NCBI RefSeq assembly: GCF_030704535.1
Contig: NC_081811.1
Coordinates: 361,501 to 425,500, forward strand
Source of the DNA: Vitis vinifera
Taxonomy: Eukaryota > Streptophyta > Magnoliopsida > Vitales > Vitaceae
Reading direction: 5' to 3'
Length of the DNA stretch: 64,000 bases
Below the pieces are notes generated by a model that was not told where the DNA came from, searched no databases, and saw only the letters and a list, made by a program, of their open reading frames with translations. Position numbers and translations under genes: made by a program. Below, in pieces: positions 17,701 to 64,000 of this stretch (the first letter of the stretch is position 1; every line of letters starts with the position of its first letter).

Positions 17701-20700
17701 GTGGATTGAAGCATCTATTAGCATAACTGGAATCATCTCACATGTTCTTGATTCAGCCATTACTTGCTTTGAGATCTTAAAATCATCAACTCACAGGTTA
17801 TAGGAGGGAGTTAAATATTTATTTGTATTAACCTTGAAAGAATTATAATAATGATAAGATGAAATAAGTAAGAGAGCGGAATCTTTCCCTCAGTATAGCA
17901 TGAAACTCTTGGGCTCTTGTAAGAGCTAGCTTTTTTGTTTGGGAAGCGACTTGGGCTAAGATATTGACTTAGGATCAGCTTACAGAGAGGGGTTAGAGGA
18001 TGCCTAATAGATGCTTTTTGTGCAAGACAGAAGAAGAAATGAGGGATCATGTCCCCCTTCATTGTCCAAAAGCGTGTATTTTGTGGCAATTGGTTTTTGC
18101 TCTATTCGACGTACAATGGGTGATGCACTCTTTAATGAGAGGGATGCTCTTGAGTTGGAGCCACTCCTTTGTTGGCAAAAAAAGAAAAATGACTTGGAAA
18201 GTTGCTCCTTTATGTCTTTTTTGGTTTATTTGGAAGGAGAGAAATAGGAGAACCTTTGAGAATTGTAAAAGCTTGGACCAAAGAATTAAAAATTTTTTCC
18301 ATATCATTTTTGGGATTGGATTAGATTGTACATTGGGAATGGTTCTATGTCGTTGATTGATTTTGTGGACTGGTTAGGCTCTCCATAGGGTGTGGTTGCT
18401 TGTTTCCATGTATTCGCACCTTTTGGTTTTTGTTGCTTTGTATACGTTGTGTATACCTTTTAAATTTAATACGATCTTCATTTACCTATAAAAAAAAAAC
18501 AATGGAACATTTTTTTCCCTTTGTGTGTGTGGTCTCTGTTAGAAATTTATGGAGTTAGAATTTAGTTAAGCTTGTGTTTCTTGTTTAAACCTAGACCAGA
18601 AATAGTAAAAGTAGGAGGTTTCTGGATTTCTCATTGTGGTTTGAAGTTTCAGCTGCAAAGATCTATTGGTTGTTTATTGAGTAATACTGTGGAAGTTGTT
18701 TCTGGATTGATGTATTTGTCATTGGTTTTTTATGATTATGAAAGGAAACTGATAGAAGAATCCTTATTATAAGTAAGTGACAAACTTATTATAGTCTTTG
18801 CTGTTGGCTTATCAATGTGGTTTGGTCTTGGTAGCAGGAGCAATCTAGCTTGACAAAAGTTCAACATGACCAGAGCATACGGTCCCAACCACAGAGGGTG
18901 ACTGATGAGAAGATAAAACAGATAAGAGATCAAGTGATTAGGGCAAAAGCATACTTGAATCTTGCACCACCAAGCAGCAATTCCCACCTAGTGAAAGAGT
19001 TAAGACTACGAATTAAGGAGCTGGAGCGGGCTGTGGGTGAAGCCACCAAGGATTCAGATTTGTCAAGGAGGTAAAGCAATTCACTACTTTGTTTGTACAC
19101 TTGCATCTAACTCTGAAATATATAATAGCCCAAAAATGGAGTTGAATGAGGAAATTAAAAATGATTGGTAAATAAGAATATTGTAGATTGGAAGTGATTG
19201 TATTTCACATATAAATTAAATGTTTTGACCAGCTCTGATTTAGGCGGAGAGAGTGCATAAATCCATTTCTCACATAACATCAATGAACTTTGCAGTGCTT
19301 TGCAGAGGATGAGAACCATGGAAGCATCCTTATCCAAAGCGAGTCACATTTATACAGATTGCTCTGCTTTAGTCTCCAAGCTCCGAGCCATGACTAACAG
19401 GGTAGAAGAACAGGTTCGGGCACAGAAGAGTCAAGCAACGTATCTGGTTGAGCTTGCTGGAAGGACAACCCCAAAAGGCTTTCACTGCCTTACTATGAGG
19501 CTGACAGCCGAATATTTTGCCCTGCAGCCTGAGGAGCAGAATTTCCCTAACCAAGAAAAATTGAATGATGGAAATCTCTATCACTATGCTGTCTTCTCTG
19601 ATAATGTTCTGGCCTGTGCCGTGGTTGTGAAATCTACCATCTCCAATGCTATGGTAAACTGTCCTATCTCTTTTCTTCTGAGTTGTATTACTTTTTATAA
19701 CAATTTGGAACTATTGTTGATAAAAGAAAAATAAGAGAACTAAGAAGAATGAAAGAACCTTGAATGTGAAATGGAAAAAATAAATAAAACTAAGTTGAAG
19801 TTACTACTAGAACCAACTGAATAATGATCAGAGAGGCGGTTGGGGTGGGGTGCTTAATGGTCATCCAACTGAATATTCTCTAGCACCCCTGTCTACTTTG
19901 GAGAACACTGTTGGTGTTTCTTTTTTATGATATTCTCTTGCTTTACCGATAAAAAAATGGTCATCAACAAATCCAGCAATAGAAAAAAAAAGTTCTCCTT
20001 GTGGCAATTGTGTTCTTGTTGAAGTTTGATAATTATGTCCTTTTCCAAATATTATAATAAATCATGGATTTGGGTGAAATGCTTTATAATTTTAACAATT
20101 GCAAGAGTTTGGGTTTTTGTGCTTATTCCAATACACCACTAGTAGTACATTGCTGCAATGAATCCACCACTAGTAGAGCCACATACTTTGGAGGCAACTG
20201 AGCAGACTGATTATCTTATTTTGGTGACGATAAGGAATCAATTATCTTTGTTTGACCACTTTCAGGATCCAGAGAAAATTGTGTTCCATGTGGTGACGGA
20301 TTCGCTCAACCACCCAGCAATGTTGATGTGGTTCTTATTAAATCCTCCTGGTGAAGCCACTATACAGATCCAGAGTGTAGAGAAATTTGAATGGTTGGCT
20401 GCCAAATATAATTCAACATTGAAGAAGCAAAACTCCCACGATTCAAGATATACTTCTGCACTGAACCACCTTCGTTTCTATCTGCCAGATGTCTTCCCTC
20501 AACTTGATAAGATTGTGCTCCTTGATCATGATGTGGTGGTGCAGAGAGATCTGAGCAGACTTTGGAGTGTTGATATGAAGGGTAAAGTAAATGGAGCAGT
20601 GGAGACTTGTCAGGAAGTTGAGCCTTCATTCCATCGGATGGATATGTTTATCAACTTCTCTGATCCAATGGTGGCTGAGAGGTTTGATGCCAAGACATGC

Positions 20701-21731
20701 ACATGGGCATTTGGGATGAATTTATTTGATCTGCATGAGTGGAGGCGGCAGAATTTGACAGCTGTCTACCATAAATACCTTCAAATGGTATGGAATTCAT
20801 GTTTTTTGGGTTGTCCTTGCATCCATTTCTTTTTAAACCCAACAGCCTAATCTGCTATCCTAATCTGCCATATATCTCCTTAAGAGAAATATTTTTAGCC
20901 AAGAATCCAACCTATTAGTTCTCGTGATTAGCCCTAGGTACTTGCTGTCCTTCATTGTCACAGCTCTCTGGATTTGATTAAATCATCCATGCTCATCATC
21001 TGTGTGTATGTGGTGTTTCTGTGGGAACTTATATTTCTCCGGAGGTGGTTTCAATTTATGTTTTGTCCTACTCTTTATTGGTAAAGACAGATGATGGGCT
21101 GTGGGGGACATATTCCCTTGTGTCCTACTCCAACAATACATGATGTGCTCCCTTGTGTGTATAGTCCTACATTTTTTAATAATAACTAGTTGGCGAACAA
21201 GGCTTTGTTGTAAATAATGGCCTTGAGATGCTAGTTTATTCTGGTTTCAACCTAGCTTTACTTTTGATATCAGGCCACCAGCCTAATTATATTTCTTTTT
21301 CTGTTTTAGCACTTCATATACACATATTTTATATGTAGTTGTAGATATGGACAGATTCAATGATACCTGATGTACCATAGATTTGTTCATTTGTGTTTCA
21401 ATTTGAGTATGCACCTAATGCCTTTATGTTTGTTTACCCCATGGTTGGTTTGCAGGGACTTGAGAATCCGTTGTGGAAGGCTGGGAGCTTGCCCTTAGGT
21501 TGGGTCACCTTCTATAAGCGGACAGTTGCTTTGGACAGGAGATGGCATGCCCTTGGATTGGGCTATGAGTCTGGTGTGGGGCGGAGCCAGATTGAGCGAG
21601 CAGCTGTAATCCAGTATGATGGAGTTATGAAGCCATGGTTGGAAATTGGAATTTCAAAGTACAAGGGCTATTGGAGCAAACACCTAAACTATGGCCACCC
21701 TTTATTGCAACAGTGCAACATACACGAGTAG
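14767..21731 (+). CDS. Galacturonosyltransferase, GAUT5/GAUT6-like (GT8 family), complete (9 exons)
   Basis: Exons 14767-14878, 14992-15026, 15310-15351, 15445-15559, 15657-15730, 18838-19070, 19296-19653, 20266-20787, 21456-21731 join in phase to 588 residues. The start is ATG at 14767 (MKQSWRWKRIAIL). A single membrane anchor at about residues 9-28 fits a type II Golgi protein. A stem and a charged region (RVTDEKIKQIRDQVIRAKAY) precede the GT8 catalytic domain. The metal/nucleotide-sugar DxD motif is DHD at residues 410-412 in LLDHDVVVQRDL; the C-terminal HYDG-type motif reads QYDGVMKPWLEIG. The enzyme family builds homogalacturonan for cell-wall pectin from UDP-galacturonate. The DHD variant, AKAYLNLAPP and GWVTFYKRT resemble the GAUT5/6 branch; activity of that branch is less well established than for GAUT1. 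Intron 5 (3.1 kb) and intron 7 contain LINE tails. Confidence 0.93.
16676..16890. repeat. Degenerate tandem repeats in GAUT intron 5
   Basis: Three related units of roughly 70-100 bp, each with a GTTAGTATG/GTAGTATAA-like start, AGAA..GAATAT and CTTTATGG. Not coding. Confidence 0.6.
17050..17330 (-). mobile_element. Possible solo LTR or LTR fragment in GAUT intron 5
   Basis: Read on the minus strand it begins TGTTAAATTGTGCAC and ends ...TGTTCTACATCA, i.e. TG...CA ends, with an AT-rich body and a TATATATAGGGC promoter-like segment in the middle. No clear target duplication and no internal genes are seen, so this is tentative. Confidence 0.3.
17462..17673 (+). mobile_element. 5'-truncated LINE insertion with 17-bp target duplication
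   Basis: A 178-bp insert (17479-17656) ends in ATCAAAAAGAAAAAAAAAA and is flanked by GGGAGAGC(A/G)ATGATTCA at 17462-17478 and 17657-17673, 16 of 17 bases matching. The first bases (GATTGGCTGGGCTCTCC) match the end of the coding region and 3' UTR of the longer LINE at 18360-18385 (GACTGGTTAGGCTCTCC). This is a classic 3'-end-only L1-type insertion. Confidence 0.75.
17868..18498 (+). mobile_element. LINE (L1-type) 3' fragment with degenerate reverse-transcriptase zinc-binding domain
   Basis: The plus strand encodes the C-terminal RVT zinc-binding domain of plant non-LTR retrotransposons: ASFFVWEATWAK, then Q-L-T-E-R-G, an in-frame TAG at 17995, then PNRCFLCKTEEEMRDHVPLHC and LFWFIWKERNRRTF, then a 3' UTR ending in a poly-A run at about 18489-18498. 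The in-frame stop replaces a codon that is usually Trp in the family. It lies in GAUT intron 5 in the sense direction. No target duplication was found, so the 5' limit is approximate. Confidence 0.8.
19856..19965 (+). mobile_element. Short LINE-tail-like insertion in GAUT intron 7
   Basis: AATGGTCATC at 19856-19865 is repeated at 19956-19965. The 90-bp insert between ends TTTACCGATAAAAAA, like the TTTACCTATAAAAAA tail of the LINE at 18498. Probably another 5'-truncated copy of the same family. Confidence 0.5.
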
Positions 21732-25288: not shown

Positions 25289-25516
25289 ATGAAGACATTC
25301 AACAAGGTCATCATCTGGGCGTTCATCTCAGCCTCTCTCTGGTTGATCCTCACCACAGCTGTTGCGGGAGGCGCTAGGATTAACACCAGCCTTAAGGTCG
25401 CTGATTTAATGATGAAAGGTCCAGTCCCTCCTTCTGCTGAATCTTCCTGTACGCGTATCGGCGGCGGCAATAGAGATGACCCCTGCCCCCGCTCCCCCCC
25501 TTCCCTTCATCATTGA
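25289..25516 (+). CDS. Small secreted peptide precursor 1, CTNIP/SCREW-like, one module (75 aa)
   Basis: Intronless, 75 residues. Residues 1-28 form a signal peptide (MKTFNKVIIWAFISASLWLI, then LTTAVAGGA). A variable spacer ARINTSLKVADLMMK leads to the module GPVPPSAESSCTRIGGGN (44-61) with Cys54 and Cys66 and the end CPRSPPSLHH. The start is the ATG that aligns with the starts of the four paralogues and lies downstream of the TATA box. The layout (signal peptide, variable region, short conserved C-terminal peptide with Pro-Pro-Ser and two cysteines) is that of plant signalling-peptide precursors; the SCTxI core resembles CTNIP/SCREW peptides, apoplastic ligands of the receptor kinase HSL3/NUT in immunity and water-loss control. 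That link is inference. Only 11 residues separate its cysteines (13 in genes 2 and 3). Confidence 0.75.
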   Translation: MKTFNKVIIWAFISASLWLILTTAVAGGARINTSLKVADLMMKGPVPPSAESSCTRIGGGNRDDPCPRSPPSLHH

Positions 25517-35399: not shown

Positions 35400-35618
35400 A
35401 TGAAGTTCATTTTCCTCTCCATTTCAATCTCTCTCTGCTTGATTCTCACCGCCACAATTCTGGTAGCAGGTGGTAGGGTTCATAGCATCTCCAAGGACTC
35501 TGTTTTAATGGCGAGAGGTCCAGTCCCATCTTCTGCTGCTTCTTCGTGCACTTATATAGGCGGCGACGATAGGGCCGACCATCGCCCCTGCCTCACTACA
35601 CCCACTACTCCTCCATGA
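35400..35618 (+). CDS. Small secreted peptide precursor 3, CTNIP/SCREW-like, one module (72 aa)
   Basis: Intronless, 72 residues, the close paralogue of gene 2. The signal peptide MKFIFLSISISLCLILTATI then LVAGG is followed by RVHSISKDSVLMAR and the module GPVPSSAASSCTYIGGDD with Cys50 and Cys64, then PCLTTPTTPP. The second proline of the usual VPPS is Ser here (VPSS), a change in the most conserved part of the module that could affect receptor binding or proline hydroxylation. The start is fixed by alignment with gene 2; both share a leader ending TTGCACAACTCAT...CATTT(T/C)(A/C)CAACATG. An RPC8 fragment follows 2.2 kb downstream. Confidence 0.75.
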   Translation: MKFIFLSISISLCLILTATILVAGGRVHSISKDSVLMARGPVPSSAASSCTYIGGDDRADHRPCLTTPTTPP

Positions 35619-46963: not shown

Positions 46964-47314
46964 ATGAAGTCGTTTAAGGAAGTGCACATCCGGCCCCTCT
47001 TCTCAATCTCTGTCTGTCTCTTGTTCATCCTCACAACAACTCTTGTGGCGTCTGCTAGAGTTCAAAGCAGCCTTAAGGACACTGGTGTAAGGACAAGTGG
47101 TCCCGTCCCTCCCTCTGCCGCTTCTTCCTGCACCCATATAGGTGGCCACAATGGACGTGACCATCCCCCATGCCACTCATCCCCTCATCAGGACGCTGTT
47201 TCAATGGCAAAAGCAGCGGCCCCTCCTCCTCCTCCTCCTACCGCTTCTTCATGTACTCGTGTAGATGGCGGCAATGGAAGTGATCGCCCATGCCCCCCAT
47301 CCACTCATCACTGA
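46964..47314 (+). CDS. Secreted peptide precursor 4, CTNIP/SCREW-like, two modules (116 aa)
   Basis: Intronless, 116 residues. The signal peptide (MKSFKEVHIRPLFSISVCLL, then FILTTTLVASA) and spacer RVQSSLKDTGVRTS are followed by module 1, GPVPPSAASSCTHIGGHN (46-63, Cys56 and Cys70). A linker SSPHQDAVSMAKA leads to module 2, in which the usual VPPS has become a run of six prolines followed by TASSCTRVDGGN (Cys97, Cys110) and CPPSTHH. The linker HQDAVxMxKA is the same as between modules in gene 5, so the internal duplication predates the split of 4 and 5 or was exchanged between them. The ATG was chosen by paralogue alignment, and a TATA-like site lies 60 bases upstream. Module 2 has lost the VPPS core and may be inactive or changed in specificity. 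Confidence 0.75.
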   Translation: MKSFKEVHIRPLFSISVCLLFILTTTLVASARVQSSLKDTGVRTSGPVPPSAASSCTHIGGHNGRDHPPCHSSPHQDAVSMAKAAAPPPPPPTASSCTRVDGGNGSDRPCPPSTHH

Positions 47315-48874: not shown

Positions 48875-51800
48875 ATGTTCTTCCTTAGCTTAATTGAGCA
48901 CACACTGCGTTTGCCTCCTCATCTTCTGGACCTTTCTCTCGATAAAACCATCCAAGGAGAGCTTGAGAGTCAATTCTTAGATAAGGTGTGAAAATTGAGC
49001 AATGTCTTTGCGTTTTCATTCTGTTATTGTGCTTTCAGAGCATTTAAGGGACTGAGAAGAATGTGTGTTGTGATGAAGGTTATTGCGGATTTGGGACTGT
49101 GTATCTCTGTATATGATATCAGATCTATTGACGGTGACTTTGCCTTTCCTGCGGATGGTGCTTCAACCTATACGGTATACCTAATCTATTTTTCTTTTTA
49201 TAATTTATCCATCAGGGACTTTTGCATTGCCTTCATATTCGTCCGTTTTTGAATTGAATTGAAAAAGGCGATGGGCTGAATCGCATGATGATTAAAACCG
49301 CACATGAATTCAACGAGGTAGTTGTAAAGCAAAATTTTGGGACAATGTTATTAGGATAATGTAAAGCAAAACTTATCTGGATTTAAATGATTTAATCATT
49401 GAAGCAACTCGAGTCAAAATTAAGCAAATCGACAGAGCCTCAATTACTTGGGTTCAGTTATTGAAATCCATTTTTGATGCTCCAATATGTCTAGAGCCAT
49501 ATTACTTATGGAAGCACAATTTATTCACCTTTCTCACTACTTTCTTTGCCTTGCCCTTGCCCCTGTCCTTGTAGGGCTTTCAACTGTATCATATTAGTCC
49601 AGACAAGATGAAAACAAAAAAGGCTTTCGGAGTCATGGTATTTCAATTGATGTATTTGGATGAAAATGACATGTTCCAGTTGTGGGCACTCGTACCAGAC
49701 CTGGGAAATGCTGTTGAATCCTGTAGGCCATTTATCTTCATATAAGTCATTCTCTAGCTCCGTTGTAAAAGTGGCATGCTTGGTTCCCAAAGACTGGTTG
49801 CAAAATCATAGCTAGAGATTGAAGATTGTTTAAAAACACTTTTATAACTTTTAGTTCAGCAGTTATATCCAAATCACTTGTTGATAAGGAACATGTTATT
49901 CATTTACTTTTTCCTAAATACTCTTTTCACAAAATCGTTGCTCCTTGACATTGCTCATGAGTTAAGGAATCAGCTTCCGAAGCATTGTGCATAACACCTG
50001 TGATTATTGGAGTGTGATCTTTCATCTTAGCTAGATACTTAGCTTAGTCCTTTCTAGTTGGTTATTATTTTTATGGGCTTTGCTGCTATGCATTTTCATT
50101 ATGGCCAAGATCATGTTGCTCTTCAAATACTTAATGCAACTTAGTTGTACCCTGTCTCAGTGAGTTACCTCTCGAAGATGTAGAGTGGATATCAGAATTT
50201 TGTTTTTCAATATAAACCTTGTTTTAAGGCATCCTTTGGCTTCTCATCAGTGAAAATAGCTGCTATGCACATGGTGAATTCAATTTTGTGTCATCATCAT
50301 GAATAACACCTATTTAATATCTGCATACTGCTGATATTGAATCTGTAATGGACAGTATCTCTTGGATTCTTTGAAGACGTCTACAGACTGGTCCATCTTA
50401 TGCCAAATCCATCCCGCTGTGAGCCAAACCCATAGAAGAATTTAACTTTTTAATGGAATTAAAATTAGATTTTTCAGGATTTCACCATTTGCTTTCTTTT
50501 TTTCTTTTGTTTTTTTCATTCATTTCATGGCTACTCCTTACATCCGTATATATAGTGTTCTACTTTTTTCCTTTTATGGAATTCCAGGAGTCAAGTCATA
50601 TGGATATGGGATAATCAAGAACAAAAATTTCCTATTGATGGGATGGACAAGGTTTAAGTTGCATAATTCTTTTAACAGTTCTATAATTATGCTAAAACTT
50701 CCAGTTGTGGTTTGCATTAACTTTTGGTGTTCTGCTGCAGATAAGGTTCCAAGTTCAGAGTGTAAGTTATTCTCCAGTTCCAGTTGAGCAACCAAAAGAG
50801 TCAAAGCCATTTGCCCCCATGGTGATTTTGGTAAGTTCATCCTTTGAACTTCATCCTTTCAAGGTTTTTCATCTCTAGAAGTAGGGCACCTCAAGCTCTT
50901 TTTCCTTTGGAAGCTGTGTTATAATTTTAAGGGCCAACTGCAGAGAGATATTGTTACTCCCTAAGATTTTGTTTTCATTGGTAAGAGTTTCTAAGTGCTG
51001 GCTGATGGAGCGTGCTCAAAACTAGTTATGTTATATTGTTTTATGGCTCTTCTTTTAGTTGGGTACCACTCTGGCAGTCGTTTGAGTACATTGAATCAAT
51101 ATTGCTATTATAAGGACTAGAAAAATAAAGTAAACAAACTTTTAGTAAATTATTCAGAATAAGCTCCCAAACATTTATATTTTTTAGACAAATAACCTCT
51201 TATTTCTTGAATTTTTCTAGTAATTTACTTGACTTCTCGGTTAGTAATTAATATTCTCTAATTTTCACTAGGAGATTATTTTTTATCCATTTATTAGAAT
51301 TCTCATATATACAGATACATGTGTGTGTATTAGATATGCCTACTATACTAAGTCTTTAGTTTATGGGTTGATGCCACTTGTGGTAAGCCAAAAGTTTATT
51401 CACTGGTGAAGATGAAATTGTTTTTCATGTTGGTGATATTGAAATCTTTCTTTCTAGACATCATTTTATATGATATGGCACTCTTAATCTAGGACACTGT
51501 TAATATATTATAGGCTTTCTCACTTCACTAAGTTGTAGTTTTTCATTTTCTCTTCTCTTGTTGAGAAACCTGTTGTCTTTTCGTTTCTTTGCTTTTTGTA
51601 TACTGTGCATGTTTATTGATTTTATCTTCTTCCTTTTTTCTTTGTGCAATAAATTGGTTATTCCATAAAGTAAAAAAAATAAAAACCAAAGGCCCATTTT
51701 TATAGGACTCTTTGTCATATTCTTGTTATGTTCAGGCATTCCATTAATTTATACATACCAAAAGGCCCTTTTTTCTGTTACTAATATATACATATGTCAT

Positions 51801-52671
51801 AGGTAATAAGAACATATTTTTTCTAATGTGTTTGTAAATGATATTTTTGAACAATGAATGCATGAATGGAAATGGGGGGAAGACAACTTTATTGTACAGG
51901 AAATGTTTTGGTTGCTTTTATAGAACCTAGTGAGCTACTCTGAATTTCTGTGAAAGCAGCAAATACCACTTATATATGAAGGAAGAAACAAATATAGCTT
52001 GAGCAATAACACTCCCAGAGGTGATTAAGAAAAAAGGAGGTTAAGCCTGTAAGACAATTTTGACAGATCCACCCAATTTGACCTTAGTCACCCATTAGAT
52101 TACCAAAAACAGAGATCCAAATTCATTTCAATATTTGGATATCTGATTGATTCAGTGAGTTCTCCAAGTATATCGTATATGCTCGTAGAGATGGACGCTT
52201 TCCGGATGCTCCGAACTGGTTCCTATTTGCACTAGTTTTAAATAAAAAGGCATTTCTTGTACACAAATATATGTGGATGTCTTGTGGGATATTCATCAAA
52301 TGTGCTTCCTATTAATTGAGAGTGTCAGGTATATATAGATGTGCCCCACTGGAAGAGAATGCCAGCTTCTGATTATTTTGGCTTGTTTTCTTCTTCCAAT
52401 CCAATCTCAATGCTCTAAGTTCTTCAATAAGGAAATTAGTAGTCCTTCGGCAATCCTTAAATCTATTTACATGTCTTTGTAAAATGTAACAATTGATGTG
52501 AGGCACCTTTGTCTTTCTGAAAATCAACTTTATGGTGTCTCTTGAATTTGTTAGGATTGCTGCTTTTGTAAATGACAGTTCCTTTCTGACAAGGAGTTGC
52601 TCCTAGCTCTGTTTTCTGTTTAGCAGGGATCACTTGATTATGATGGTTTAAGTCCTGTTTCATGGTGGTGA
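48875..52671 (+). pseudogene. RPC8/RPC25 (Pol III Rpb7-like subunit) pseudogene, copy 2
   Basis: Recognisable exons: 1 at 48875-48985, 2 at 49079-49174 (VIADLGLCISVYDIRSIDGD then FAFPADGASTYT), a decayed exon 3 near 49216-49290, 4 from 50356, 5 at 50588-50651 (SQVIWIWDNQEQKFPIDGMD), 6 at 50741-50830 (IRFQVQSVSYSPVPVEQPKE, then SKPFAPMVIL), 7 at 52627-52671 (GSLDYDGLSPVSWW, stop). Order and splice sites match the family, which is a stalk subunit of RNA polymerase III. Exon 4 reads SLGFFEDVYRLVHLMPNPSR then CEPNP and hits a TAG at 50433; exon 3 is frameshifted. Most other exons look well preserved, so loss seems recent. Expression of a truncated product cannot be excluded. Confidence 0.75.
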
Positions 52672-52890
52672 TCTGTTAAAAGAAAAGGGAGAAGCAGCAG
52701 GAACAGTAAAGGAAATCATACCCCTAGCATGATTTAAATTTTCTTATCATAGGAGATAAAAATTAAATTTTAGAAACAGTTTCTCATTTTGATTGGAAGG
52801 GGAAACTGCTATTGATATAGCTCTGATTTTTATCAAGAAGAAATATCATCAACCTTGGAATTTTTGCTCAAATTTAAAAGCACATTTGGC
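49403..52890. repeat. Recent segmental duplicate, copy A (partner 60477-63990)
   Basis: Nearly identical by eye over about 3.5 kb to 60477-63990, including introns, with scattered substitutions and small indels (for example 33 extra bases near 63620 in the partner). It carries RPC8 exons 4-7. Confidence 0.9.
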
Positions 52891-53139
52891 AAAAAAAAAT
52901 TTTATAAAACAGTTTTTAAAAATTTGTTCTAAAAATGGGTTGTTTTATGATAATGTGTTTAAATTGCTTTAAGTTGTTTTATGGGGGGTTATTATAAAAA
53001 ATAATTGTATGAATACGGAGAATAATTGAAAATAAAATACTATAAATAAAAGTTATTTTTAAGAAATATTTGGAAACATAAAAAATGATAGAAGAATATT
53101 CCAAGTTTTCAAATAAACTTTTTCTTCATTGAATTACTT

Positions 53140-54205: not shown

Positions 54206-55682
54206 TTTATTATTATTGTTATTATTTTTCAAACCCAAATTTCAAACCAATTTCAAGTCTTAGGAAATATCCTTAAGCCTTCTCAAACATTTTATCAAGT
54301 GACCCAAGCCCAACCTTCAAAGCAGGCTCCAAGCAATTACATTGCAAAAGCCCATTTGATGAAAGTTCGAATATTCGAAGTTCATCATCTCAATAAGTCT
54401 GGTTCTTTAGACTTATCAAAAAAATTTCCAAAAGGAAAATATTTTCTTCAAATGATTCCCTCAAAACAAGAAGATTTTATGAATTTATTCTTGTTAATCC
54501 AAATTCTGTAGAAGTTTCCCATATTCAAAACAGAGATTCTACAAAAATTTGTTATTTAAAATGCAAAATTTTCAAAGTTATTTCTGAACTTGAGTGGGGA
54601 CAATCTCTTGTCACCCATAAAACGTTTTCTCAAAATTTTAAGTCATCTTCGTATGATTATTATGATTATATGGATGTGTGGTTTTGTATTTTGCTTTGAA
54701 GTTGATTTGACGCTTTTGAATATTGTTGAAGAGAAAGGACTCCATCTTAGTCCAACGTTGTGTATGGCAAGCTATAACACATGTCTTCATTTTGGGGCTC
54801 TTTGAGAATTGAAGAGGTTGAATCATCATCATCAAAATTTGAAGCCAGTTGAGAGAGGGTTTCCACCGCACGTTGCTGAAGCATTTTGAGGTGTTCTCTC
54901 AACAGCTTGATGGAAGAATGTGCAACTAAAGGTGTTGATGAAGTTGGAATTCCTTCATATAGAAGAAAATGAAGTTAAAAAGGATTTTGAATATTGGAGG
55001 GAGCCTTTGCTGCAATCTAGTTTTTTATATGAGAAAGTTGTTGAGCAGAAGATGGGGAGAAGTTTGACCACCATTTAACTTTGAATTCATACGCCAAATG
55101 CGCGGGAAATAAAAGATCAATTAGATGTGTTTGAACAAAATCTCAACACAAGATTCATGGAATTTGAAAGCGAGAAGTGAAGAAAAGAGTTTGAGAACAT
55201 CGAGCAGAGATCAAACCCTTTGCATGCTCTTTGAAGTAATCAAAAGATGGTTTGATTTGAGGATATAAAATTGTTGGAATGGCGCCAAAGTATAACCACC
55301 ATTCTTGGAACCAATTTGGAAAGGAAGTTTGAAATTTAAATACTAATGGAATAACTAGGAATGATCGAATGGACGAAAGAGAAAAACACAAAACCATGCA
55401 TCCATATAATCATAATAATCATATGAAGATGGCTTAAAATTTTGAGAAAACATTTTATGGGTGACAAGAGATTGTCTCTACTCAAGTTCAAAAATAACTT
55501 TGAAAATTTTGCATTTTGAATAACAAATTTTTGTAGAATCTCTGTTTTGAATATGGGAAACTTCTACAGAATCTGAATCAACAAGAATAAATTCATAAAA
55601 TCTTCTTGTTTTGAGGGAATCATTTTGAAGAAAAAAATTTCCTTTCGAATATTTTTTTGATAAGTCTAGAGAACTAGTCCAT
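54203..55682 (+). mobile_element. Degenerate retroelement-derived sequence
   Basis: Fragments of a polyprotein-like reading, including a YDYYDYMD(V/A)W motif that I associate with plant LTR-retroelement or pararetrovirus-related polyproteins, plus a charged stretch near 55080-55190. Many stops and frameshifts; no intact domain, LTR or integrase was found. The family is uncertain. Confidence 0.4.
54396..55682. repeat. ~285-bp inverted repeat with ~710-bp spacer
   Basis: Left arm about 54396-54677, right arm about 55389-55682 in reverse orientation. Shared blocks are GATTCCCTCAAAACAAGAAG, GTAGAAGTTTCCCATATTCA and CAATCTCTTGTCACCCATAA. Only scattered mismatches by eye, so a read-through transcript would fold into a long hairpin. 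Confidence 0.85.
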
Positions 55683-58235: not shown

Positions 58236-58241
58236 TATAAA
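58236..58241 (+). promoter_or_regulatory. TATA box of peptide gene 5
   Basis: TATAAA in TGTCTATAAAACCC, 55 bases before the ATG at 58296; start of transcription expected near 58266. It rules out the in-frame ATG at 58212 as the start. Confidence 0.65.
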
Positions 58242-58295
58242 ACCCAACCACCCCCTCCCCATCCATCACTCATGATTTTGCACTCATATTACAAC

Positions 58296-58973
58296 ATGGA
58301 GTTGTTCAACAAAGTCATCAGTTGGGTCTGGGTCTCCTTCTCAATCTCTGTCTGGTTCATTCTCACCACAGCTCTTGTGGGAGGTGCTAGGGTTGATAGC
58401 AGTCTTAAGTACGATGCTTTAATGGCTAAAGGTCCAGTCCCCCCTTCTGCTGCTTCTTCCTGTACCCATATAGGTGGCGGCAATGGAGGTGACCACCGCC
58501 CATGCCCCCCATCCACTCATCAGGACGCTGTTTTAATGGAAAAAGCCCCAGTCCCTCCTTCTGCCGCTTCTTCCTGCACCCATATAGGTGGCGGCAAGGG
58601 AGGTGACCATTGCCCATGCCCCCCATCCACTCATCAGGACGCTGTTTTAATGGCAAAAGCTTCAGTCCCTCCTTCTGCCGCTTCTTCCTGCACCCATACA
58701 GGAGGCGGCAGTGGGGGTGACCATCGCCCATGCCCCCGATCCACTCATCAGGACGCTGTTTTAATGGGAAAAGCTCCAGTCCCTCCTTCTGCTGCTTCTT
58801 CCTGTACCCATATAGGTGGCGGCAATGGAGGTGACCATCGCCCATGCCCTCCATCCACTCGCCAGGACGCTGTTTTAATGGGAAAAGCTCCAGTCCCTCC
58901 TTCTTCTGCTTCTTCCAGTACCCACAAAGGAGGTGACCGTCATCGTCCATGCTCCGCATCCACGCTTCACTGA
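58296..58973 (+). CDS. Multi-unit secreted peptide precursor 5, CTNIP/SCREW-like, five tandem modules (225 aa)
   Basis: Intronless, 225 residues. The signal peptide is MELFNKVISWVWVSFSISVW, then FILTTALVGGA; the spacer is RVDSSLK. Five tandem units follow, 38 residues each and the last 35, at residues 39-76, 77-114, 115-152, 153-190 and 191-225. Each has DA(V)LM.K(A/G)PVPPSAASSC, TH(I)GGGNGGDH and PCP.ST. Cysteine pairs are 56/70, 94/108, 132/146 and 170/184. Unit 2 has an extra Cys106, unit 3 reads SVPPS, and unit 5 has Ser at the first Cys position and keeps only Cys219. The start is set by the TATA box and by alignment with MKTFNKV in gene 1. Each unit resembles the single module of the other precursors, so the protein could release several copies of a peptide. 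Processing sites are not evident as dibasic residues; the CTNIP/SCREW relation is inference. Confidence 0.8.
   Translation: MELFNKVISWVWVSFSISVWFILTTALVGGARVDSSLKYDALMAKGPVPPSAASSCTHIGGGNGGDHRPCPPSTHQDAVLMEKAPVPPSAASSCTHIGGGKGGDHCPCPPSTHQDAVLMAKASVPPSAASSCTHTGGGSGGDHRPCPRSTHQDAVLMGKAPVPPSAASSCTHIGGGNGGDHRPCPPSTRQDAVLMGKAPVPPSSASSSTHKGGDRHRPCSASTLH
58410..58970 (+). repeat. Coding minisatellite, 114-bp unit x 5 in peptide gene 5
   Basis: Units at 58410-58523, 58524-58637, 58638-58751, 58752-58865 and 58866-58970. Shared strings are CAGGACGCTGTTTTAATGG, CAGTCCCTCCTTCTGC and GCTTCTTCCTG(C/T)ACCCATA. The unit is a multiple of three, and similarity at synonymous positions is high, as expected from recent expansion or sequence exchange. 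Confidence 0.95.
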
Positions 58974-59047
58974 TGCCGATAGGCTTCTTCGGTTCTTCGG
59001 GCTTTACCGCTCCTCCTAAATCTTGTGTGTATGGGTTATTTTTTAGC

Positions 59048-59107
59048 TTTCAACAACAATGTTATTTTAATTTTATGTCAATCATATAATAAGATTGCGA
59101 ACTGGTT
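59048..59107 (+). promoter_or_regulatory. Conserved 3' UTR block after peptide gene 5
   Basis: TTTCAACAACAATGTTAT, then TTTTATGTCAATCATAT and TAAGATTGCGAACTGGTT, matching the blocks after genes 1 and 4. Confidence 0.6.
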
Positions 59108-59893: not shown

Positions 59894-60420
59894 CTGTTTT
59901 TAGATCGGAAAATGCTTCTCCACTGAAAAAGTCAGGAATAATACATTATACATGAGAGTTAGTCCCTTGAAAAGGAGTTCTTTAAAGGCATATTTGGTGG
60001 ACTACCAGAGTGCTCAACTCAAATAATTAGGGTACAATGAGTCTAAAATTTTGGACCTGGTCAGCTTAATCCAAATTTCATGTCTATGGACAAATTTTCA
60101 AACTGCTACTTCAAAGCCATATTAATAACAATTTTGATAACATAATGCAAATATGTGATAATGATTAGGGTAGGCTATGGAAGAAAATTTTCTGGTTTCA
60201 TTATGGAAAATTTGAAAGAAAATTAAATACAACTAGGATAAGTTAGATCTTATGTGTTTTTAAATTATTTAACCAGTTAAAATAATTGAAATAAATGTGA
60301 GAGAAATAAACTAGAGAAGAAAAAAATGAGAAAAAATAAAAATTATATTTATATCATATTGGGTTAATGAAAGCACAGGATCAGGGGAAATGTAAATGGT
60401 AAAAAAGATCATTTTCTTAT
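59894..60420. other. Intergenic DNA
   Basis: AT-rich. I looked here for RPC8 exons 1 and 2 (present in copy 2) and found neither. Confidence 0.4.
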
Positions 60421-60476
60421 ATTTGCTATTTTTATGGCTGATTGTGAAAATCCATTTCTTCTACCAGAGAATTGAC

Positions 60477-63400
60477 GCAACTTGAGTCAAAATTAAGCAA
60501 ATCGACAGAGCCTCAATTACTTGGGTTCAGTTATTGAAATCCATTTTTGATGCTCCACCATGTCTAGAGCCATATTACTTATGGAAGCACAATTTATTCA
60601 CCTTTCTCACTACTTTCTTTGCCTTGCCCTTGCCCCTGTCCTTGTAGGGCTTTCAACTGTATCATATTAGTCCAGACAAGATGAAAACGGAGTCGATGGT
60701 ATTTCAATTGATGTATTTGGATGAAAATGACATGTACCAGTCGTTGGCACTCGTACCAGACCTGGGAAATGCTGTTGAATCCTGTAGGCCATTTATCTTC
60801 ATATAAGTCATTCTCTAGCTCCGTTGTAAAAGTGGCATCTTGGTTCCCAAAGACTGGTTGCAATATCAGAGCTAGAGATTGAAGATTGTTTAAAAACACT
60901 TTTATAACTTTTAGTTCAGCAGTTATATCCAAATCACTTCTTGTTAAGGAACATGTTATTCATATACTTTTTCCTAACTACTCTTTTCACAAAATCGTTG
61001 CTCCTTGACATTGCTCATGAGTTAAGGAATCAGCTTCCGAAGCATTGGGCATAATACCTGTGATTATTGGAGTGTGATCTTTCATCTTAGCTAGATACTT
61101 AGCTTAGTCCTTTCTAGTTGGTTATTATTTTTATGGGCTTTGCTGCTATGCTTTTTCATTATGGCCAAGATCATGTTGCTCTTCAAATACTTAATGCAAC
61201 GTAGTTGTACCCTGTCTCAGTGAGTTACCTCTCGAAGATGTAGAGTGGATATCAGAATTTTGTTTTTCAAAATAAACCTTGTTTTAGGGCATCCTTTGGC
61301 TTCTCATCAGTGAAAATAGCTGCTATGCACATGGTGAATTCTATTTTGTGTCATCATCATGAATAACACCTATTTAATATCTGCATACTGCTGATATCGA
61401 ATCTGTAATGGACAGTATCTCTTGGATTCTTTGAAGACGTCTACAGACTGGTCCATCTTATGCCAAATCCATCCCACTGTGAGCCTAACCCATAAAAGAA
61501 TCTCACCTACATTTAACTTTTTAATGGAATTAAAATTAGATTGTTTAGGATTTCACCATTTGCATTCTTTTTTTCTTTTGTTTTTTTCATTCATTTCACG
61601 GCTACTCCTTACATCCGTATGTATAGTGTTCTACTTTTTTGCCTTTTATGGAATTCCAGGAGTCAAGTCATATGGATACGGGATAATCAAGAACAAAAAT
61701 TTCCTATAGATGGGATAGACAAGGTTTAAGTTGTATAATTCTTTTAACAGTTCTATAATTATGCTAAAACTTCCAGTTGTGGTTTGCATTAACTTTTGGT
61801 GTTCTACTGCAGATAAGGTTCCAAGTTCAGAGTGTAAGTTATTCTCCAGTTCCAGTTGAGCAACCAAAAGAGTCAAAGCCATTTGCCCCTATGGTGATTT
61901 TGGTAAGTTCGTCCTTTGAACTTCATCCTTTCAAGGTTTTTCATCTCTAGAAGTAGGGCACCTCAAGCTCTTTTTCCTTTGGAAGCTGTGGTATAATTTT
62001 AAGGGCCTACTGCGGAGAGATATTGTTACTCCCTAAGATTTTGTTTTCACTGGTAAGAGTTTCTAAGTGCTGGCTGATGGAGAGTGCTCAAACTAGTTAT
62101 GTTATATTCTTTTATGGCTCTTCTTTTAGTTGGGTACCACTCTGGCAGTCGTTTGAGTACATTGAAACAATATTGCTATTATAAGGACTAGAAAAATGAA
62201 GTAAACAGACTTTTAGTAAATTATTCATAATAAGCTCCCAAACATTTATATTTTCTAGACAAATAACCTCTTATTTCTTGAATTTTTCTAGTAATTACTT
62301 GACTTCTTGGTTTTTAATTATTATTCTCTAATTTTCACTAGGAGATTATTTATTTATCCATTTATTAGAATTCTCATATATACAGATACATGTTGTGTAT
62401 TAGATATGCCTACTATGCTAAGTCTTTAGTTTATGGGTTGATACCACTTGTGGTAAGCCAAAAGTTTATTCATCGGTGAAGATGAAATTGTTTTTCACGG
62501 TAGTGATATTGAAATCTTTCTTTCTAGACATCATTTTGTATGATATGGCACTCTTAATCTAGGACGCTGTCGATGTATTCTAGGCTTTCTCAATTCACTA
62601 AGTTGCAGTTTTTCATTTTCTCTTCTCTTGTTGAGAAACCTGTTGTCTTTTTGTTTCTTTGCTTTCTGTATACTGTGCATGTTTATTGATTTTATCATCT
62701 TCCTTTTTTCTTTGTGCAATAAATTGGTTATTCCATAAAGGAAAAAAAATAAAAACCAAAGGCCCATTTTTATAGGACTCTTTGTCATATTCTTGTTATG
62801 TTCAGGCATTCCATTAATTTATACATACCAAAAGGCCCTTTTTTCTGTTACTAATATATACATATGTCATAGGTAATAAGAACATATTTTTTCTAATGTG
62901 TTTGTAAATGATATTTTTGAACAATGAATGCATGAATGGAAATGGGGGGAAGACAACTTTATTGTACAGGAAATGTTTTGGTTGCTTTTATAGAACCTAG
63001 TGAGCTACTCTGAATTTCTGTGAAAGCAGCAAATACCACTTATATGAAGGAAGAGACAAATATAGCTTGAGCAATAACAGTCCCAGAGATGATTAAGAAA
63101 AAAGGAGGTTAAGCCTGTAAGACAATTTTGACAGATCCACCCAATTTGACCTTAGTCACCCATTAGATTACCAAAAACAGAGATCCAAATTCATTTCAAT
63201 ATTTGGATATCTGATTGATTCAGTGAGTTCTCCAAGTATATCGTATATGCTCATAGTGATGGACGCTTTCCGGATGCACCCAACTTGTTTCTATTTGCAC
63301 TAGTTTTAAATAAAAAGGCATTTCTTGTACACAAATATATGTGGATGTCTTGTGGGATATTCATCAAATGTGCTTCCTATTAATTGAGAGTGTCAGGTAT

Positions 63401-63990
63401 ATATAGATGTGCCCCACTGGAAGAGAATGCCAGCTTCAGATTATTTTGGCTTGTTTTCTTCTTCCAATCCAATCTCAATGCTCTAAGTTCTTCAATAAGG
63501 AAATTAGTAGTCCTTCGGCAATCCTTAAATCTATTTACATGTCTTTGTAAAATGTAACAATTGATGTGAGGCACCTTTGTCTTTCTGAAAATCAACTCTA
63601 TGGTGTCTCTTGAATTTGTTCTCCTGGTATTTTATAATATTTTATCAGGGAGGATTGCTGCTTTTGTAAATGACAGTTCCTTTCTGACAAGGAGTTGCTC
63701 ATAGCTCTGTTTTCTGTTTTGCAGGGATCACTTGATTATGATGGTTTAAGTCCTGTTTCATGGTGGTGATCTGTTAAAAGAAAAGGGAGAAGCATCAGGA
63801 ACAGTAAAGGAAATCATACCCCTAGCTTGATTTAAATTTTCTTATCATAGGAGATAAATATTAAATTTTAGAAACAGTTTCTCATTTTGATTGGAAGGGG
63901 AAACTGCTATTGACGTAGCTCTGGCTTTGGTCAAGAAGAAATATCATCAGCCGTGGAAATTTTGCTCAAATTTAAAAGCACATTTGGCAA
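60477..63990. repeat. Recent segmental duplicate, copy B (partner 49403-52890)
   Basis: Same content and order as copy A. An extra stretch at 60421-60476 matches copy 1 (38482 onward) but not copy 2, so copy B keeps an older junction that copy A has lost. It extends to the window edge. Confidence 0.9.
61416..63769 (+). pseudogene. RPC8/RPC25 pseudogene, copy 3 (exons 4-7 only)
   Basis: Exon 4 from 61416 with an in-frame TAA at 61493, exon 5 at 61660-61723, exon 6 at 61813-61902, exon 7 at 63725-63769 (stop TGA). The peptides match copy 2 nearly residue for residue (IDGIDK here, IDGMDK there). Exons 1-3 are missing upstream. The stop in exon 4 falls on the same codon as in copy 2 but is TAA rather than TAG. 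Confidence 0.75.
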
Positions 63991-64000
63991 TTTTATTTTA

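Follow-up and report, generated by a model that had tools for sequence, protein, structure and literature searches.

CTNIP/SCREW peptides and multi-ligand precursors

CTNIPs are secreted, stress-induced Arabidopsis peptides whose receptor is HSL3 (HSL3/NUT), with BAK1 (PMC9191895). Residues 48–70 of CTNIP4 are enough for activity, and the double mutation C58S/C68S abolishes both activity and binding (PMC9191895). The size limit was <150 amino acids (aa) in the Arabidopsis search and 300 aa across species. In the confident cross-species set the cysteines lie 9–11 apart, and a relaxed set predates that filter (PMC9191895). The CTNIP motif itself is termed ‘relatively conserved residues’, and >40% of the members were unannotated. 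Perception of the peptides appeared species-matched; they affect root growth, and the bacterial susceptibility of mutants was unchanged in Rhodes et al. (PMC9191895). Reviews place CTNIP/SCREW in stomatal reopening after immune activation and in drought responses (PMC12907539, PMC13056886). CTNIP has been given a PSGP core in common with CLE, PIP, CEP and IDA (PMC11331138); a review describes CTNIPs as having no sequence relationship to IDA, CEP and PIP (PMC12907539).

Precursors that hold several copies of a ligand are known from other plant peptide families. CLE precursors may carry between two and six motifs, spaced ∼30 aa apart (37 and 33 in table rows); examples are rice CLE75/76, wheat CLE30/31 and Medicago CLE68, for which signal amplification has been suggested (PMC2254619). 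CEP9 contains five ligand domains, PIP2, PIP3 and PIPL1 contain two SGPS motifs each (PMC4526919), and the CEP family comprises 1,223 domains in 916 genes (PMC4197245). The sequence-only reading of the locus described here had taken one module per precursor as the rule for this kind of plant peptide; CLE, CEP9 and PIP2/PIP3/PIPL1 show that no such rule holds across plant peptides generally. Repeated-copy precursors are thus known in CLE, CEP and PIP, and what is new here is a CTNIP-like multi-module form.

Among the literature matches listed, a search with subscription papers and supplements outside its scope, there is no report of a multi-module CTNIP precursor. Papers naming CTNIP include, by title, none on grape or on a multi-module CTNIP, and among the matches listed for CTNIP/SCREW and grapevine only PMC9048904 names CTNIP. 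The main text of PMC9191895 mentions neither Vitis or grape nor tandem or duplicated copies. Module motif strings sought in paper texts returned none on this peptide; the matches included tomato IDA and CLE.

A probable five-module precursor gene in grapevine

The window analyzed here is a stretch of 64,000 nucleotides from Vitis vinifera. By tblastn and translation it holds five related genes, all on the + strand, with 1, 1, 1, 2 and 5 modules. The five-module gene, gene 5, has the following features.

58236–58242, + strand: TATA-like TATAAAA, 60 bp 5′ of the gene 5 ATG (consensus match only)
58296–58973, + strand: open reading frame of gene 5 (P0001), a 225-aa precursor, uninterrupted, 0 internal stops
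58296–58388, + strand: probable signal peptide of 31 aa, ending in VGGA and followed by Arg (hydropathy and alignment)
58410–58523, + strand: module 1, 38 aa, core GPVPPSAASSCTHIGGGNGGDHRPCPP from 58431, preceded by Lys; two Cys separated by 13 residues
58524–58637, + strand: module 2, 38 aa, with an extra Cys (HCPC); codon-phased split
58638–58751, + strand: module 3, 38 aa, with ASVPPS and CTHTG variants; codon-phased split
58752–58865, + strand: module 4, 38 aa; 97% identical to module 4 of P0002
58866–58973, + strand: module 5, degenerate, with 35 aa before the stop (three residues shorter; Ser in place of the first Cys); 97% identity with the final module of P0005

The sequence-only reading had described this open frame as five 38-residue modules behind one signal peptide. 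The frame is borne out at 225 aa with no internal stop, as are five tandem modules and a probable signal peptide; module 5, at 35 aa and with Ser for its first Cys, departs from the description. The start codon lines up with those of other members of the family, and a second in-frame ATG lies upstream at 58272. The N-terminus is hydrophobic (hydropathy peak 1.87, residues 15–29), and the signal peptide is called from hydropathy and alignment, with its cleavage site placed by eye. The Arg that follows occupies an aligned position in most members of alignment A1 (13 family members; 14 were prepared and P0021 was left out), and an Arg at the corresponding place has been reported in IDA and PIP precursors (PMC4526919). 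A short RVDSSLK stretch separates the predicted signal peptide from module 1, and AATAAG lies 115 bp 3′ of the stop.

Tandem Repeats Finder reports positions 58411–58924 with period 114 (3 × 38), 4.5 copies, 91% matches, 0% indels and a score of 839. This is the top score among 30 rows in the window, which argues that the repeat is not chance. The coding repeat had been called very uniform: the in-frame 114-bp period without indels holds, but the uniformity was overstated, with pairwise DNA identities of 0.868–0.921 among modules 1–4 and 0.762–0.819 for module 5 against the rest. The open frame is weaker evidence than it looks, because a stop-free 114-bp unit stays open if copied and one antisense frame of the array is nearly open as well (1 stop only; a 207-aa antisense stop-to-stop frame at 58426–59049). 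Lys stands directly before the core in all five modules, and modules 2–5 start with APVPPS or ASVPPS.

The other four family members in the window, all identified by tblastn and translation, are as follows.

25289–25516, + strand: gene 1, paralogue of 75 aa with one module, its Cys separated by 11 residues
29279–29497, + strand: gene 2, paralogue of 72 aa, one module
35400–35618, + strand: gene 3, paralogue of 72 aa, one module
46964–47314, + strand: gene 4, paralogue of 116 aa, two modules, the second with both Cys and without PVPPS

Gene 1 shares 88% identity with PVL29_008298 from Vitis rotundifolia. That species contributed 13 proteins to the A1 profile search described below; ten of them, numbered between PVL29_025390 and PVL29_025416, are located on a single 20.8-Mb contig, a grouping that points to expansion of the family in Vitis.

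A 3.5-kb segment 3′ of genes 4 and 5 (49398–52892 and 60471–63990) is 97% identical between its two copies at an offset of ∼11.1 kb, whereas the two adjoining peptide genes are only 75% identical over their first 228 nt. This contrast may be read as recent conversion of the segment or as rapid divergence of genes 4 and 5. We considered and rejected a protein-coding gene within the duplicated segment: 60400–64000 contains seven stop-to-stop frames of at least 70 aa, the longest of 121 aa, and three of the seven, compared with Pfam, gave no match. An Rfam scan of the window returned 0 matches. Elsewhere in the window, 20158–20850 covers a portion of a family 8 glycosyl transferase gene (PF01501, E 3.8e-42), perhaps a galacturonosyltransferase, and an inverted repeat at 54402–54695 and 55380–55674 (93% identical over 295 bp) is perhaps a mobile element.

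Probable relationship of gene 5 to CTNIP/SCREW peptides

Gene 5 has no family match in Pfam. The sole match among the 13 A1 members was a weak one to DUF4799 (E 0.058), and none of ten further relatives reached the family cut-off. Comparisons with solved structures gave best E values of 0.85, 0.15 and 0.55, which we take as chance; the peptides are short and probably disordered.

A profile search with A1 retrieved 69 proteins with E no higher than 10 (database of 5.8 billion), and its eudicot matches read [KR]GPVPPSxxxxCT[NHY]IPG...C. From this search 23 eudicot proteins were picked by hand as alignment A2; P0052, P0063, P0074, P0077, P0086, P0088 and P0092 were left out, though canonical-like. 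Individual A2 E values range from 5.6e-4 to 7.8, with one of the 23 below 0.001, four below 0.01 and the best literal-CTNIP member at 4.3e-3. Aligned by hhalign, A1 and A2 gave a probability of 98.4 and a score of 80.0, against at most 25.9 in 40 column-shuffled controls, a comparison that is not blind because A2 was gathered with A1. A literal CTNIP, found in 11 of the 23 A2 members and absent from A1, is the independent sign. With GPVPPS and all before it removed, the score was 32.4 (at most 13.0 in 40 shuffles). No relation was seen between the N-terminal parts alone (score 14.4, probability 2.5). The family link runs via A2, not via the Arabidopsis CTNIP1–5 sequences.

Like CTNIP/SCREW precursors, gene 5 encodes a short, probably secreted precursor with a CTxI motif and two cysteines, in a class of genes that is often unannotated (PMC9191895). 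Hydropathy and alignment indicate the N-terminal signal peptide, and the length of 225 aa exceeds 150 aa and lies below the 300-aa limit. Gene 5 also carries a basic residue and then a GPVPPS-type core, a feature of its A2 relatives. Across 30 canonical-like proteins, K or R precedes 28 of the 32 pattern matches, two of the four misses being off-core, and across the 93 proteins examined it precedes 102 of 120. Ten residues precede the first Cys in the gene 5 core (GPVPPSAASS), as in the CTNIP4 active fragment. Modules 1–4 contain two cysteines; module 5 contains the second only.

Several features separate gene 5 from canonical CTNIPs. It has five modules rather than one. In modules 1, 3 and 4 the cysteines are separated by 13 residues, beyond the published 9–11 filter; in module 2 the extra Cys brings the number to 11. 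The motif reads CTHIG in modules 1, 2 and 4, CTHTG in module 3 and STHKG in module 5, instead of CTNIP, and the EMN..AG-type tail of A2 is absent. Intermediate forms occur in P0024 and P0046 (CTHIG, 10 between Cys), P0049 (CTYIG, 12) and P0052 (CTYIP, 10). Given the spacing of 13 and CTHIG for CTNIP, we call gene 5 CTNIP/SCREW-like rather than a confident CTNIP; by the profile link, membership of its modules among the CTNIP/SCREW phytocytokines is likely but incomplete.

Two further relatives came to light. P0067 (CK203_112882, Vitis vinifera) is more canonical CTNIP-like (GPVPPSSPSSCTHIPGQRGG), and its gene model lacks a second Cys afterwards. P0093, from the legume Psophocarpus tetragonolobus, has two modules reading PPSAPS[RH]GCSDPPC (E 9.1); it carries a precomputed Pfam assignment, PF27884.1, a match that the Pfam scan in this analysis did not return.

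Two other families were considered and rejected. IDA/IDL peptides need S(G/A/V)PS and then (R/K)(R/K)HN; the modules read SAASSCTH (modules 1–4) and SSASSSTH (module 5), with no RRHN or KRHN. PIP/PIPL peptides need SGPS and a C-terminal GxGH, neither of which is in P0001.

The multi-ligand arrangement has parallels of different closeness. The CLE motif lacks the two-Cys pattern and CLE peptides use other receptors; CEP and PIP peptides likewise use other receptors and are not known to carry a cysteine pair. Gene 5 resembles animal prohormones and neuropeptide precursors, which also hold several related peptides in one secreted precursor. We know of no homology between them and gene 5, whose linkers lack dibasic sites and which has a single Lys ahead of each core. 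With CLE precursors gene 5 shares several regularly spaced motifs behind one leader (PMC2254619). With CEP and PIP precursors it shares several ligand domains per precursor, CEP9 having as many domains as gene 5 has modules (PMC4526919, PMC4197245); their ligand sequences differ, reading SGPS...GxGH and SPG(I/V)GH (PMC4526919).

The best reading of gene 5 is the one already proposed from the sequence alone, a multi-copy secreted peptide precursor, and its family is probably CTNIP/SCREW-like. Its chief competitors are signalling through another receptor and decay of the array with one module still functional. In the first, gene 5 would be a single- or multi-ligand precursor of a Vitaceae-type family that acts on a receptor other than HSL3, its likeness to IDA and CTNIP reflecting a shared PPS-type core. 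We consider this somewhat unlikely, though the Cys spacing and CTHIG do differ from canonical CTNIP, gene 5 has no Pfam match and A1 only the weak one to DUF4799 (E 0.058), and grape has the more canonical P0067 (SLQPGPVPPSSPSSCTHIPG). In tomato, the IDA sequence is PIPPSAPSKRHN, and P[LI][PS]PSAPSCRSS occurs in three members (PMC12903503). Against this alternative, CT-x-I-[P/G] and the second Cys are held in common and still score without GPVPPS, and there are the intermediate forms P0024, P0046, P0049 and P0052. This alternative is in part compatible with the preferred one, since the multi-ligand element is common to both.

Related sequences and age of the array

Among 8000 scored candidates sharing most words, the closest protein to gene 5 is P0002 (CK203_002463, Vitis vinifera), 89% identical over 94% of the query. 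P0002 has five modules and lies on a 3.8-Mb contig; its gene model takes in an exon further 3′, and module 2 falls short by nine residues. Judged by sequence, it is another allele or assembly of the five-module gene. P0002, P0003, P0004 and P0005 have 5, 3, 3 and 2 modules; the latter three, presumably from Vitis, sit on short contigs (1.4–3.0 kb). P0003 may be incomplete, and P0005 extends into the stretch around the TATA-like box and so looks genomic rather than transcript-derived. These module counts give mild support for function only, as the sequences are predicted proteins and in frame by construction. Other multi-module relatives, from at least one further plant, are P0006, P0009 and P0019 (75.9-Mb contig) and P0010 (73.9-Mb contig), with 2 to 4 modules at 58–71-residue intervals.

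The modules of gene 5 mostly match those of its relatives by position. Module 1 is 0.95–1.0 identical to module 1 of P0002, P0003 and P0005, module 2 is 0.95 identical to module 2 of P0003, and modules 1 and 4 are 95% and 97% identical to their P0002 counterparts. As exceptions, module 3 is slightly closer to module 2 of P0003 (0.89) than to module 3 (0.86), and modules 2 and 3 of P0002 are both closest to module 2 of P0003. The P0004 modules have no clear positional partners, in contrast to those of the other three related sequences. Nei-Gojobori dS values, based on small counts, are 0.11–0.28 among modules 1–4 and 0.36–0.52 with module 5. The dS of 0.11–0.28 and the mostly positional matches with P0002, P0003 and P0005 argue that the array is neither very recent nor freshly homogenized, contradicting the recent expansion or homogenization that the sequence-only reading had inferred from the repeat. 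By these comparisons, the array is older than the split of gene 5, P0002, P0003 and P0005.

Comparison of dN/dS between modules, which had been proposed as a check, gave 0.25–0.80 over all ten pairs (Nei-Gojobori, small counts). Among the cores of modules 1–4 there are 8 synonymous changes; nonsynonymous changes number 6 where 9.9 would be expected (one-sided P 0.026, from only 14 changes). Over whole modules the nonsynonymous deficit has P 0.084, and the linkers have none. The core thus shows a modest sign of constraint, in a weak test.

The second main rival takes the array as decaying or neutral: a former single- or two-module gene grown by unequal crossing-over, yielding a ligand from module 1 only, or none. 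Cys loss in module 5 and gain in module 2, the ASVPPS and CTHTG variants of module 3, the missing PVPPS in gene 4 module 2, the varying module number of related sequences, the unconstrained linkers and the P of 0.084 for whole modules all speak for such decay. Modules 1–4 nevertheless keep both cysteines, Lys stands ahead of all five cores, the core has its nonsynonymous deficit and most modules pair with those at the same position in P0002, P0003 and P0005, so that we regard decay as unlikely. That the extra modules are a tandem-repeat assembly artefact is highly improbable: related sequences on 1.4–3.0 kb contigs do have 3, 3 and 2 modules, but Vitis vinifera P0002 has five on its 3.8-Mb contig, with modules 1 and 4 95% and 97% identical to those of gene 5, and modules 1–4 differ mutually by 8–13%, as a falsely multiplied copy would not.

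Loss of the first cysteine in last modules

The degenerate last module of gene 5 has counterparts elsewhere in the family. The last module lacks the first Cys in seven of 11 multi-module precursors (P0001, P0002, P0005, P0006, P0008, P0009 and P0010) and retains it in four (P0003, P0004, P0011 and P0019); the earlier modules of the same precursors never lack it (0/22). This count was drawn from 12 hand-picked precursors and leaves outside P0007, whose second module the pattern missed, and gene 4, whose last module keeps both Cys. The set does not include two further two-module proteins, P0066, which has no cysteines, and P0093, which has a different Cys pattern. The replacements look like three or so separate losses (to Ser, Phe and Tyr), in rows that are related. 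Among P0006, P0009, P0010 and P0019, Tyr replaces the first Cys of the last module in three.

A more speculative extension, to which we give little credence at present, is that grapevines adjust a phytocytokine through the number of modules. Gene 5 would then be a multi-ligand CTNIP-type precursor of variable copy number, in which repeated loss of the first Cys from the last module would turn that module into a non-signalling cap or into a decoy competing for the receptor or the protease.

Proposed processing and significance

On balance, we favor gene 5 as a secreted multi-ligand precursor of a grapevine CTNIP/SCREW-like phytocytokine family, a reading that leaves the earlier observation partly confirmed and its interpretation partly supported. 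The signal peptide would direct the precursor into the secretory pathway. Proteases, likely subtilases, would then cleave inside the STHQDAVLM linkers and close to the basic residue that precedes each [G/A]PVPPS core, which could release modules 1–4 as ∼26-residue two-cysteine peptides. These may act on a grape HSL3/NUT-type receptor kinase, with module 5, which lacks the first Cys, as an inactive C-terminal cap. Since module 5 lacks one of the two Cys and the pair is needed in CTNIP4, four active peptides are a safer expectation than five. Tandem copies would provide more ligand per transcript as well as slightly different ligands.

Our comparison suggests that the published 9–11 Cys-spacing filter may miss a grape branch of the CTNIP family. 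If the preferred reading is true, the grape array would be a test case for the processing of multi-ligand plant precursors, and grape genes with 1 to 5 ligand modules, together with the differing numbers in related sequences, would form a natural dose series of a crop stress peptide.
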